This document shows positions 32,884 to 37,447 of a stretch of DNA of 64,000 bases, one piece after another. The notes beneath the pieces are model-generated. The model was not told the DNA's origin. It saw only the letters and a list, made by a program, of their open reading frames with translations, and searched no databases. Source of the stretch: Armatimonadetes bacterium Uphvl-Ar2 (GTDB lineage Bacteria > Armatimonadota > Fimbriimonadia > Fimbriimonadales > Fimbriimonadaceae); NCBI GenBank assembly GCA_002162095.1, contig CP021424.1, positions 2,108,001 to 2,172,000 on the forward strand. Direction: 5' to 3'. Each line of letters begins with the position of its first letter. Position 1 is the stretch's first letter. A program made the translations under genes and the position numbers.

Positions 32884-34266
32884 TTAGAACCGGGAGTCTT
32901 CGCCCATGTTCCGCAGGGCGGGAAGGGTTGCGGTTTGGCCCGAACCACCACCTGTGGTCCCACCGCCGACGCGTCGCATTTCGTAGAACACCTGCCAACC
33001 GAACTCGGCGATGGGCACGCGGTTGGTGCGGTAGCGTTGCAGCACAGCCACCAGCGCCCGGGTGTAAACCCCATTCACGCTGCCACTGTTCATCAGGCCG
33101 ATGACGTCGCCCCCACTCATGGTGGACTGCATCTGCGAGAGGAAGCCGAAGATCGGAACTTCTTCGCCGAAGTAGCGGCCGTTGGCCATGGCTCGGCGCA
33201 CTTGGAAGAAGGAGAAGACGCGCGCACCCTTCATAAAGAACGGGCGGAACAGCTCAATCTTCGCCACCATGCGGCTGGTGTCGCTGGTGCCGTTCACATC
33301 CACGCCGGCGAGGTAGTCCTTACCGTCGATGTTGAAGCCTGCACCGGCAAAGAAGAGGAACAGCGTGGCGTCCTGCGGCATGCGCTCAGCGAGGGCGGCG
33401 GCTTGGTTCTTGATCTCTTCGGCGCTGACGTTCAGCAAAATCACCGTGTTCTCATCCGCGTAGCCTGCATGCTGTAAAAGGGCATCGCGCAGCAGGTTAG
33501 CGTCGTTCTGAGCAAAAGACTGCTTGTAGTTGTCCAGGCTCGATTCGCTATTGCCAATGATAAGCGCAAACTTGGTGGCTACCACCGGCACACGGTCGCT
33601 CGGGCCGGTCGGCACCGGCGGCGTCGTGGTTTGGTTACCGGCTTGATTACCAGCTTGGTTGCCCGCGCCAATCACTTGGGTCGGATTCACCATCCCGGAT
33701 TGGTTACCTTGGTTGTTGTTCGCCACGGCTTGGCCGGTGATCGCCGCGAGGGCCGCGACTTCATTCGGATCCAAGACGGAGGCATCCACGCGCCAGGTGG
33801 CTGGTTGGGCCTTCCATCGCGTTTCCACTTCCCGCTGCATCTGGGCGTCGTTCAGTTGGATGTAAATCTGATTAAGGAAGTAGAACGTCTCGGCAGAGCG
33901 CTGATTCTTATCCACCAGCGTACTGAGCTCCGTTGCGGCTGTGCGCAGGATGCCCGTCTTGACTTCGTCATTCTTCTCTTCCAGAGCCGAGCGATACGCG
34001 CTGTAGGCCGCCAGGAAGTTGGGAGAATAGGGGCTTCCGTTGCGCCACTCGCGGCGCTCGGTCACGGGGGCCGGAAGGCGCGTGGGCTCCGATTGATCCT
34101 CGGGCCGCATCGCGGCCGCATTCAAAAACGCTTCGCGGGCAACGGCCCACTGCTTGCCCTTGGCGGCGCCAAGCCCTTGCTCATACGCTTCGCTCCATGA
34201 CTGCGCCCAGGCGGTTGCGCTCAGCGCGGCCACCATCAAAAATGCCGAGACCCGGTTTGCCCTCAT
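32884..34266 (-). CDS. exported caspase-like (C14-fold) protein with degenerate catalytic residues
   Basis: 460 aa. Signal peptide MRANRVSAFLMVAALSATAWA, a helical TPR-like region (about residues 25-145), a short NQAGNQAGNQ repeat (about residues 203-212) and a caspase-like domain from about residue 228: FALIIGNSESSLDN, NDANLLRDALLQHAGY, DATLFLFFAGAGFNIDGKDYLAGVD and VNGVYTRALVAVLQ. The GHG that holds the catalytic His is GAG (Ala309), and the DaC Cys segment reads VFSFFQVRR, so it should not be an active protease. It is last in an operon, 26 bases after the PorV-like gene, with AAAGG as ribosome site. Confidence 0.7.
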   Translation of the reverse strand: MRANRVSAFLMVAALSATAWAQSWSEAYEQGLGAAKGKQWAVAREAFLNAAAMRPEDQSEPTRLPAPVTERREWRNGSPYSPNFLAAYSAYRSALEEKNDEVKTGILRTAATELSTLVDKNQRSAETFYFLNQIYIQLNDAQMQREVETRWKAQPATWRVDASVLDPNEVAALAAITGQAVANNNQGNQSGMVNPTQVIGAGNQAGNQAGNQTTTPPVPTGPSDRVPVVATKFALIIGNSESSLDNYKQSFAQNDANLLRDALLQHAGYADENTVILLNVSAEEIKNQAAALAERMPQDATLFLFFAGAGFNIDGKDYLAGVDVNGTSDTSRMVAKIELFRPFFMKGARVFSFFQVRRAMANGRYFGEEVPIFGFLSQMQSTMSGGDVIGLMNSGSVNGVYTRALVAVLQRYRTNRVPIAEFGWQVFYEMRRVGGGTTGGGSGQTATLPALRNMGEDSRF

Positions 34267-34292
34267 TCCGTTGCCTTTGTTATGTTCCTTCT

Positions 34293-35441
34293 TTACTTGA
34301 CCCCGCCGACGGCATACGTAATGCCCAGCGACATGTCGACTGGCCCGCCCCCGGTGGGGGAGGCAAAGTTGAGGTCTACCGCGTACTTGTTCGAGTAGGG
34401 GCGGTAGCCCAAACCGAACGTCAGCGCGTTGCGCTCATCAAACCCCGCTCCTCCGCTCGGTGCCATTTGAACACCAAAACGGATCGGCCAACGTGCGTCG
34501 AACTTGAACAGATTGTATTCGAGCCCCCCGCCCAGAACCAGGTGGTTCTTGCGCGGGATCACGCGGTTCGACTGACCTCCAAAGTAATAGTCGGCTTGAA
34601 AACCGTAAACCATGAAGTCATCCGATCCAAATCGTCCGTCGGTCCGCATGGCAAGGCCAAGAGTTGCCTTACCCGGCACGCGGTCGTAGATAGCTTCGGT
34701 GCTCGTATTGCCCTCCAGCGAAATCGGCGTGCGCAAGCTGAACGAGACGTTGAGATCAGGGTTGTTGACCGGGGTGTGACTGATGCCGACCACCGCGCCG
34801 AGGCCCGTCCCGTTGCCGCTCACGTTGGACTGCTGAGTGCCCACCGTCTGGTTCGTCTGCGGGTCCACGATCGTCAAGTTGCTTTCGTTCTTGATGTACT
34901 GGTTCGCCACCACGATGCCAAAACCGTAGTTGGTTTGCCCAGAGTTGCGCCCGTAGCTGATTGTGAAGAAGTCCGTCTGGCTGATGGTCTCCTCAAAGTA
35001 GTTGTCCACTCGCAGCTGGCCGTTGGCCAGACCCGTGCCCGCCTGCTGGTTGCGCAGGTAACCGCCCGTGGTGAAGCTCAGGCCGATGGTGCCGGTGGCC
35101 ACCGGGGTGGCATAGCCCACGTGGGTGATGGCGCGCTTGCCAAAGAACTCTTCACCGTTGAAGGTGCGGTTCGTAAAGCTCCCGGTCACGCGCTGACGGC
35201 TCGTCGGCAAGTTGCGGAAGGCTATGCCGAATTGCGAACTGTTGATGAAGCCCAAGTTGGCGGGGTTGCTGAGGGCCGAATAGGTGTTGGCATCGGTGGC
35301 GTAAAACGCGCCGCCCGCCCCCATGGTTCGCCCGCCTGCGTCCAACGCATTGACGAGATCAGGGACCTGACCCAGGCTCAAAGCCGAACCGCTAAGCCCA
35401 AAAACGGCCAGCGACACTCCCAAGGGCAACTTCTTCATCAT
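34293..35441 (-). CDS. PorV/FadL-like outer-membrane beta-barrel protein
   Basis: 382 aa. A signal peptide (KKLPLGVSLAVFGLSGSALSLGQ) precedes LDAGGRTMGAGGAFYATDANTYSALSNPANLG, which matches the G-A-x-x-M-G-x-GGAF ... NPA-x-L hatch of the OMPP1/FadL/PorV superfamily. Alternating strands ending in aromatic residues fill the rest and the protein closes with LGITYAVGG. I place the start at ATG 35441, with AGGT near it, instead of the ATG at 35474. CATAAT lies just upstream (about 35477-35482) as a possible internal promoter. Confidence 0.7.
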   Translation of the reverse strand: MMKKLPLGVSLAVFGLSGSALSLGQVPDLVNALDAGGRTMGAGGAFYATDANTYSALSNPANLGFINSSQFGIAFRNLPTSRQRVTGSFTNRTFNGEEFFGKRAITHVGYATPVATGTIGLSFTTGGYLRNQQAGTGLANGQLRVDNYFEETISQTDFFTISYGRNSGQTNYGFGIVVANQYIKNESNLTIVDPQTNQTVGTQQSNVSGNGTGLGAVVGISHTPVNNPDLNVSFSLRTPISLEGNTSTEAIYDRVPGKATLGLAMRTDGRFGSDDFMVYGFQADYYFGGQSNRVIPRKNHLVLGGGLEYNLFKFDARWPIRFGVQMAPSGGAGFDERNALTFGLGYRPYSNKYAVDLNFASPTGGGPVDMSLGITYAVGGVK

Positions 35442-35484
35442 GCGTACCTGTTCCAAGACGGTGTAAGTTCTCATTATGCCGCGC

Positions 35485-36471
35485 TTACTGTCCTTGGACC
35501 TGCAGGACGACCTCTTGGCGCACGGCGGCGTTTCCAGCCTTGTCCACGGCCGTCACCACGAGCTTAAACTGACCCGGCAATCGGAACTTGGATTGCACCC
35601 GGCCGGTCCATACGATGCGGTTGCCATCCGTGCGAATGGAGCGGCGACTAACTCGCGCCAGGAACCGGTTATCCATGCCCACCAGGGTCACGTCCACGCC
35701 GGTGCGGTCAATCGCATTAGCGAACTGATCTTGCACGCTTAGCACCACGGCCAGCGAACTGCGCGGGAACAATGTGGTGCCGTTGGCCGGGGCGAGGATC
35801 GAGATCACCGGGGCGCGGCGGTCCAGCGTCACGCTTACGTTGCGGTTCGTCACGTTGCCCGCGAGGTCTTCAACTCGGAATTCGATGTTTTGGGTCCCAT
35901 CCGTGAGGATGGAACTGGCATCCCACACCACGTTGATCGTTTCGGTGTTGCCGCTATTGTTGGGGATGTCGCTGTTGTTCACCCGTACGCGCCATTCTTT
36001 GATGTTCGGCTCGTCCAGCGTCGCGCGGATGTTGACAGTGCCATCTACAAAGGAGTTGCTGATCGGGTCGAAGTCCACGATCTTGGGGTTGCGGATGTCA
36101 ACGATCACCGGGATCGGCGGCACGGTGTTGTAGGTGTTGCCGGGTTCCGTGGCGATCACCTGAATGTTGTAGGCACCCTGCGGAGAGGTTTCGCCAAAGT
36201 TAAGGGGAATCGTGCCCGTGGCATCGCCGCCCGGTTCGGGCGTGAACTTGCGCTCCACGGAGACTATGTTCGCGGGGTTGGCTACGTTCGTCGCCGTCAC
36301 CACCACCGTGGCTTCACGGTTGGAACCGGTGATGTTGATCTGAACGTTGTTGCTGCGGCCGAGATATTCGCCGTCGGTCGGCTTCGTCACCGTAATCGTC
36401 GCCGCTTGGCTGAGGGCGGCCGCCAAGGTGGCGCCAAGAATCCAAATGGCTCGCATCGATCCCTCTCTCAT
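35485..36471 (-). CDS. exported protein with Ig-like domains
   Basis: 328 aa. Signal peptide MRAIWILGATLAAALSQA. About three Ig-like domains follow, marked by the recurring pattern of TVTKPTDGEYLG, VIVDIRNPKIVDFDP, VEDLAGNVTNRNVSVTLDRRAPVISILAPANGTTL and VVTAVDKAGNAAVRQEVVLQVQGQ, as in bacterial Big-type and cadherin-like repeats. Two starts are possible: ATG 36471 with TATACT 7 bases upstream (leaderless) or ATG 36456 with GAGAGAGGG before it. It is the first gene of the exported operon. Confidence 0.7.
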   Translation of the reverse strand: MREGSMRAIWILGATLAAALSQAATITVTKPTDGEYLGRSNNVQINITGSNREATVVVTATNVANPANIVSVERKFTPEPGGDATGTIPLNFGETSPQGAYNIQVIATEPGNTYNTVPPIPVIVDIRNPKIVDFDPISNSFVDGTVNIRATLDEPNIKEWRVRVNNSDIPNNSGNTETINVVWDASSILTDGTQNIEFRVEDLAGNVTNRNVSVTLDRRAPVISILAPANGTTLFPRSSLAVVLSVQDQFANAIDRTGVDVTLVGMDNRFLARVSRRSIRTDGNRIVWTGRVQSKFRLPGQFKLVVTAVDKAGNAAVRQEVVLQVQGQ

Positions 36472-36492: not shown

Positions 36493-37302
36493 TTACGGGT
36501 TCAGGATGGACTCCACAAAGTTCGCCACGCCGCCTTCATCGTGGCCCGGAACCACAATGTCCGCCACCGCTTTCAGGCCATCAGGGGCCCCGCCCATCGC
36601 GCCGGCGTAGCCCGCCCACTCCAGCATTTCTTTGTCATTAAAGTAGTCGCCGATGGCCGCAACTTCATGCGCCTGGATACCGAGCGTCTCGCAAAGGATT
36701 TGTAAGCCCCGCCCCTTGTGGATCCCCACCGGCAAGAACTCTACGTAGTCGGCTTCGCTACGCACCAGTTCGTAGTCGGTGCCATGGGCGCCCGGGGCTG
36801 TCGCCACGGCCTCTTCAATCACGGGCGGGTGGTCGAAGTACAGGAGCTTGGTGGCCGGGTGGGTGACCAGGCCCTCGTAGCCGACCACCGGCACCTGGCC
36901 GAGCCCCGTCCGGCGCTGATACTCCGCCGCAAAGGTGCCCCCGGTGGACATCAGAACTTGGCTCCCGGAATACAGATTGGTGTGGAGTTGCCGCGCCTGG
37001 CTGAAGGCAATGAGGTCATCCCGTACACAATCGTCCAGCCGGAAGTGTGCGATTTCGCTGCCGTCATCGGCCATCACATAAGCCCCGTTGCAACTCACGA
37101 TAGGGCCTTGCAAGCCCACTGCCTGGGCAATCGACGTCATGGTGCTGGGCGCCCGCCCGCTGGCCAATACGACCATGATCCCCGCTTCTTGAGCGCGGCG
37201 CAAAGCCGCTGCTGAATCCGGGTGCGGGGTGCGCGCCCGGGTGAGCAGCGTGCCGTCGCAGTCCACGGCGATCAAGCGGATGGAGGAAACGGAGGTGCTC
37301 AT
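36493..37302 (-). CDS. Cof-type HAD-IIB phosphatase
   Basis: 269 aa. HAD motif I AVDCDGTLL, motif II VVLASGRA, motif III-like Lys in VGIHKGRGLQILC, and motif IV AIGDYFNDKEMLEWAGY place it in the Cof/YidA-like group. The C2 cap lies between motifs II and III. Such enzymes dephosphorylate sugar phosphates, FMN or other small phosphates; the substrate is unknown. I use ATG 37302 since the longer upstream reading shows no homology. Confidence 0.88.
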   Translation of the reverse strand: MSTSVSSIRLIAVDCDGTLLTRARTPHPDSAAALRRAQEAGIMVVLASGRAPSTMTSIAQAVGLQGPIVSCNGAYVMADDGSEIAHFRLDDCVRDDLIAFSQARQLHTNLYSGSQVLMSTGGTFAAEYQRRTGLGQVPVVGYEGLVTHPATKLLYFDHPPVIEEAVATAPGAHGTDYELVRSEADYVEFLPVGIHKGRGLQILCETLGIQAHEVAAIGDYFNDKEMLEWAGYAGAMGGAPDGLKAVADIVVPGHDEGGVANFVESILNP

Positions 37303-37447
37303 GCCTAGTTGAGTGTGCGGAATGGAAGCGGAGGCTCTCCGACATTCGGCCCGGACGGGCCCAGGAAAACCCGCGGCCCGGAACCGTAAAGATTGCCAGT
37401 GTCGGTGCCAACAATCACTTGTGCGGGGGAGTGCCGCATTCACGAAG

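Follow-up and report, generated by a model that had tools for sequence, protein, structure and literature searches.

What does a conserved, exported three-gene operon that pairs an outer-membrane barrel with a caspase-fold protein do outside the Bacteroidota? The question is raised by a locus in the genome of Armatimonadetes bacterium Uphvl-Ar2, a member of the Fimbriimonadales (Armatimonadota) with a genome of 2.63 Mb on one contig. The locus lies in the window, a stretch of 64,000 nucleotides covering positions 2,108,001 to 2,172,000 of contig CP021424.1. Three genes stand side by side on the minus strand. The first (36471-35485) encodes an exported protein of 328 amino acids (aa) with three immunoglobulin (Ig)-like domains (Pfam Big_13/Big_7). 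The second (35474-34293) encodes a 14-stranded outer-membrane barrel of the FadL/PorV superfamily (393 aa) with a FadL-type N-terminal hatch, and the third (34266-32884) an exported protein of 460 aa that joins tetratricopeptide repeats (TPRs) to a caspase-fold pseudo-protease. The intergenic gaps are 10 bp (Ig/barrel) and 26 bp (barrel/caspase). As read from the sequence, each of the three proteins has a signal-peptide-like hydrophobic N-terminus, and none has a lipobox. The three neighbouring, same-strand genes with export signals described in the original prediction are therefore real. The Ig protein probably starts at the ATG at 36456, with GAGAGAGGG just upstream, instead of at 36471, and the barrel is more likely to start at the ATG at 35441 or 35438 than at 35474. 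We tentatively favor the view that the operon encodes an envelope module, in which the Ig protein and the barrel form a display or anchoring pair at the outer membrane and the TPR-caspase-fold protein acts as a non-catalytic scaffold.

The trio is conserved far beyond close strains. In a sample of 291 genomes from the phylum, an orthologue of the caspase-fold protein was present in 81, the barrel in 77, and both in 76; in single searches of 101 genomes, 61 yielded the barrel and 64 the caspase-fold protein. At all 36 examined loci having both barrel and caspase genes, the Ig, barrel and caspase genes are adjacent, on one strand and in that order. Since the whole neighborhood of grpE, glmM, coaX, cheW and cheA is also syntenic in many members of the family, gene order within the family is weak evidence alone. 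The trio is intact, however, where the flanks are altered (for example at loci L067, L074, L079, L085, L090 and L092). The same order also recurs in family f22 (three genomes from two genera), where the other flanks are quite different. The f22 barrels match the profile of the trio barrel at E 4e-42 and 2e-39, and f22 barrel matches to PorV_fam and PorV2 reach 1e-12 and 2e-11. The Ig proteins of f22 are 1241 and 1168 aa long; its third protein, exported and 1377 or 1519 aa long, has a C-terminal C14 domain with intact AGHG and DACR motifs. Its caspase domain aligns with that of the window type at 7e-5 (hhalign), and the N-terminal domains of the two match weakly (hhalign E 0.01, probability 4%). 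Within the 291-genome sample, the trio is absent from family f2 and several Fimbriimonadaceae. Two cases with only the caspase gene (G064, G167) and one with only the barrel gene (G177) rest on contig fragments. An apparent barrel-caspase fusion in G007 (an open frame of 858 aa) was rejected as an artifact, as a run of N at L068:6619-6637 conceals the stop. Literature searches found no paper combining PorV with Armatimonadetes and none combining Fimbriimonadales with outer membrane.

The caspase-fold protein passes the gathering score of Peptidase_C14 in Pfam (30.7 bits; cut-off, 21.4), and 24 of 35 orthologues match this family at E 0.01 or better. It is the sole C14 protein found in the window genome. 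When an orthologue model was compared with solved structures, the caspase domain was closest to MALT1 (Z 23), followed by metacaspase 4 (21) and caspase-7 (20). The protein carries A309 where the catalytic His is expected and V356 at the Cys region. In the alignment of 37 orthologues, residue 309 is never His and usually Val, Ala or Pro; DACR is replaced by a motif of the FFQV-R type, and the one sequence with Cys at 356 is still without the His. The His-Cys dyad is absent in all 37, which bears out the loss of catalytic residues noted in the original prediction. No variation occurs in another 26 alignment columns, among them R358, F366-G367 and the C-terminal F460. Relative to the nearest relative, dN/dS was 0.031 for the caspase gene, 0.036 for the barrel gene, 0.031 for coaX and 0.030 for glmM. 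This indicates that the pseudo-caspase is under purifying selection matching that of its housekeeping neighbors. The N-terminal TPR-like domain, which went unmentioned in the original prediction, is matched by TPR models in several orthologues. A second exported C14 protein, of ~1000 aa and with a far better Pfam C14 score than the trio caspase, occurs in several Fimbriimonadaceae (L192:4062-7058, L193:6225-9254, L198:4032-7181) and is apparently absent from the window genome.

The Ig protein is built of a variable and a conserved part. Its C-terminal ~110 residues make up a domain whose conservation extends over families f1, f3, f4 and f5, and the number of Ig repeats before this domain varies, from three in the window to many more in proteins of 718-816 aa; the C-terminal domain was undetectable in f22 or f11. 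Pairing of Ig and barrel genes is also seen in G094 (f11), which has two such pairs with no caspase recognized beside them. A second Ig-like and barrel pair lies on a separate short contig, G063:C151 (L094:1-3269), where no caspase was seen. In G032 and G050, the gene for a HAD phosphatase directly abuts the caspase gene, so the Ig and barrel genes are missing together, which supports their being a pair.

The envelope module is favored because the order of the trio is kept at every examined locus, through changed flanks and again in f22; because 76 of the 81 genomes with the caspase-fold protein also have the barrel; because the dead caspase is as constrained as coaX and glmM; and because the Ig protein, paired with a barrel in G094 too, couples variable repeats to a conserved C-terminal domain. 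The layout also has precedents, namely Flavobacterium operons that encode a type B substrate, an SprF-type shuttle barrel and a PorE-like protein (PMC12618676), and the retention of PorU on the cell surface by PorV (PMC5562754). We infer that the barrel partners with the exported Ig-repeat protein in the outer membrane, where it would most likely hold or display this protein via the conserved C-terminal domain. The TPR and caspase-fold pseudo-enzyme would most likely be a non-catalytic scaffold or clamp. The third protein of f22 keeps its His-Cys pair, so the catalytically active caspase may be the ancestral form, and in f22 it may have processed the Ig protein. A surface-attachment or export module outside the Bacteroidota had been proposed for this locus; its conserved, exported trio is confirmed, and a role in attachment or export is possible but unproven.

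Several results weigh against the envelope module. The caspase gene is kept without Ig and barrel genes in G032 and G050, and stands alone in a different neighborhood in G021. Among the parts of the barrel, the hatch ranks with the best conserved and the outer loops do not; moreover, the modeled barrel is nearest to FadL, a transporter. No Sov-type translocon was seen that could carry the Ig protein across the outer membrane, as Sov/SprA (TIGR04189) was above the cut-off in none of 61 genomes. Contacts between the proteins were modeled at loci where neighboring genes are in frame, with the intervening stop read as glycine; this gives a purely computational join, which does not exist as a natural protein and in which the second signal peptide forms the linker. 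AlphaFold2 returned a pLDDT of 88 and a pTM of 0.60 for the join of barrel and caspase (L071, 58 rows), and a pLDDT of 90.7 and a pTM of 0.54 for that of Ig protein and barrel (57 rows). In both joins the parts were confidently modeled and their relative placement was not, which does not disprove an interface. The barrel-caspase interface that would have backed the original prediction gained no support from the model.

The barrel itself can be read in more than one way. By sequence, the window protein matches the NCBIfam model PorV_fam (NF033709) at 3e-7 and 30.3 bits, below the curated cut-off of 90 bits, which was exceeded in none of 81 genomes. PorV_fam is matched by 34 of 35 orthologues at E 0.001 or better, PorV2 by 10 and FadL by one; the PorP/SprF model (TIGR03519) matched one of the 35, at 5e-4, and this was not the window protein. 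By fold, the solved structures nearest to an orthologue model are those of E. coli FadL and its relatives (Z 33.7, root-mean-square deviation (rmsd) 2.9 over 328 residues, 14-15% identity), followed by BamG (9n2d_B, 9hiv_F, 9hjm_F; Z 28-29) and then PorV of the type IX secretion system (25.4-25.7, rmsd 5-6). A structure search among viral proteins gave just caspase and generic barrel matches. Thus, sequence and fold indicate different branches of one superfamily.

One rival reading takes the barrel for a plain channel of the FadL type that passes hydrophobic molecules; the Ig and TPR-caspase proteins would then be accessories in the periplasm, receiving or relaying its substrate. FadL-type features are present: 14 strands, the N-terminal hatch, which together with the mature N-terminus aligns from FadL residue 1, and an invariant NPA motif at residues 70-72. 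In addition, a search of the window genome for canonical FadL (PF03349) gave no match; the barrel itself falls below the cut-off of that family. However, the sequence matches are to PorV/PorQ in 34 of the 35 orthologues and to FadL in one, and a separate canonical FadL is encoded alongside the trio in some genomes (G017, G025, G042). To our knowledge, no transporter needs an Ig-repeat or caspase-fold partner. We therefore consider a plain channel somewhat unlikely.

The three proteins may also share one transcript and have separate envelope functions, with synteny inherited without physical partnership. The retention of the caspase gene alone in G021, G032 and G050, the likewise conserved neighborhood from grpE to cheA in the family, and the failure to place either AlphaFold2 join confidently are what such a history would leave. 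The trio is nevertheless whole despite flank changes and recurs in f22 among quite different neighbors. Besides, a motif and profile scan recognized no caspase neighbor at any of 20 weaker barrel loci sampled elsewhere in the phylum, and these barrels were rejected as members of the set. Separate functions are thus rather doubtful.

A more elaborate proposal is a system for surface-protein maturation and anchoring that is independent of type IX secretion, in which an outer-membrane carrier with the FadL fold serves a client made of Ig repeats, and the caspase-fold partner is an active processing enzyme in f22 and has become a dead, strongly selected scaffold in the Fimbriimonadales. We regard the full proposal as distinctly unlikely. 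With an intact dyad and a dead one in the same operon setting, the role of the caspase fold there is directly testable.

BamG, a FadL relative within the BAM complexes of Bacteroidota (PMC12611786, PMC12578637), suggests another function: the barrel could be a BamG-like subunit aiding outer-membrane protein assembly, and the Ig and TPR-caspase proteins extra BAM subunits. Like the trio barrel, BamG has a FadL fold; its role is one other than transport, and its structures outrank PorV in the fold search (Z 28-29 against 25.5). BamG has an extended N-terminal tail that passes through the lateral opening; no such extension is seen in the model of the trio barrel, where residue 25, close to the putative start of the mature protein, aligns to FadL residue 1. 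In Bacteroidota, BamG appears to be essential, whereas the trio is dispensable across the order, being missing in f2 and several Fimbriimonadaceae, and neither BamA nor any other BAM gene was recognized beside it. A BamG-like function is therefore improbable.

The original prediction also linked the trio to type IX secretion. PorU-type C25 peptidases were absent from the window genome and present in 4 of the 61 genomes. Cargo with the Por secretion tail (TIGR04183), a C-terminal domain (CTD), had no match in the window genome and scattered, mostly weak matches in relatives; type B tails (TIGR04131) and the PorKLMN/GldKLMN motor genes were not searched. It is thus extremely improbable that the trio is a true type IX attachment module: matches to PorV_fam and PorV2 and a gene-level likeness to PorV with PorU speak for it, but there is no Sov above the cut-off in the 61 genomes, C25 and CTD are unmatched in the window genome, and the caspase fold is C14-like and nearest to MALT1. 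For the window genome this reading is largely refuted. Sov-like matches were rejected as a translocon because they are limited to a stretch of ~95 residues in proteins of ~900 and ~1180 aa. The ~900 aa protein, exported and barrel-like, carries this SprA-type motif at E 3e-9 (G000:C1:1387563-1390313, L195:1064-3814); similar matches occur across the order, and the G000 copy lies beside what reads as a CsaB-like gene.

The trio can be compared with several known systems. In five operons of Flavobacterium, a type B substrate is encoded with an SprF-type shuttle barrel and a PorE-like protein (PMC12618676). As in those operons, a gene for a protein with a conserved C-terminal domain is followed by a barrel gene and then by a third partner; in contrast, the window genome has no Sov or CTD match, the third protein has a caspase fold, and the barrel scores to PorV_fam, with a PorP_fam match in one of 35 orthologues. 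Without Sov, the trio cannot work as the operons of Bacteroidota do. PorE has TPRs. In Porphyromonas gingivalis, PorV holds PorU on the surface, and here too a caspase-like fold is paired with a FadL-superfamily barrel (PMC5562754). PorU is catalytic, of the C25 type and has its own CTD, whereas the trio protein has a C14 fold and has lost its dyad. The trio barrel shares its strands, lumenal hatch and NPA motif with FadL, and differs from it in its low identity, its score below the PF03349 cut-off and its Ig and caspase-fold partners. Pseudo-orthocaspases such as SyOC of Synechocystis are likewise bacterial proteins of the C14 fold that lack the His-Cys pair (PMC7889975); unlike SyOC, the trio pseudo-caspase has a signal peptide and a TPR-like domain and is encoded together with a barrel and an Ig protein in a fixed operon. 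Barrels of the FadL superfamily have been repeatedly recruited from transport to other roles, as in PorV, SprF and BamG. A fixed trio of barrel, Ig and caspase-fold proteins, in genomes that yielded no type IX translocon, would suggest that the coupling of barrels to surface proteins with a caspase fold is wider than type IX secretion.

Upstream of the Ig gene, the minus strand encodes a Cof-type HAD phosphatase (36493..37443), which is cytosolic and outside the module, and probably co-transcribed with the trio. Directly after the caspase gene lies a likely intrinsic terminator (32860-32822, minus strand) with the stem AACCTCCTC...GAGGAGGTT and a T-rich tail; it was found by reading the sequence and, with a loop of more than 8, was not listed by the terminator scanner. 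In most relatives, and not in the window genome, a gene of ~290 aa with helix-hairpin-helix (HhH)-like GVGPK motifs follows directly 3' of the caspase gene (L063:7507-8418, L069:4247-5170 and others). It was considered as a fourth member and taken as an unrelated neighbor, since its product appears cytosolic, with DNA-glycosylase-like HhH motifs. A trio caspase of the Fimbriimonadaceae type was also encountered at L111, on a contig titled Methanoregulaceae archaeon SJ84; the title looks mislabeled.
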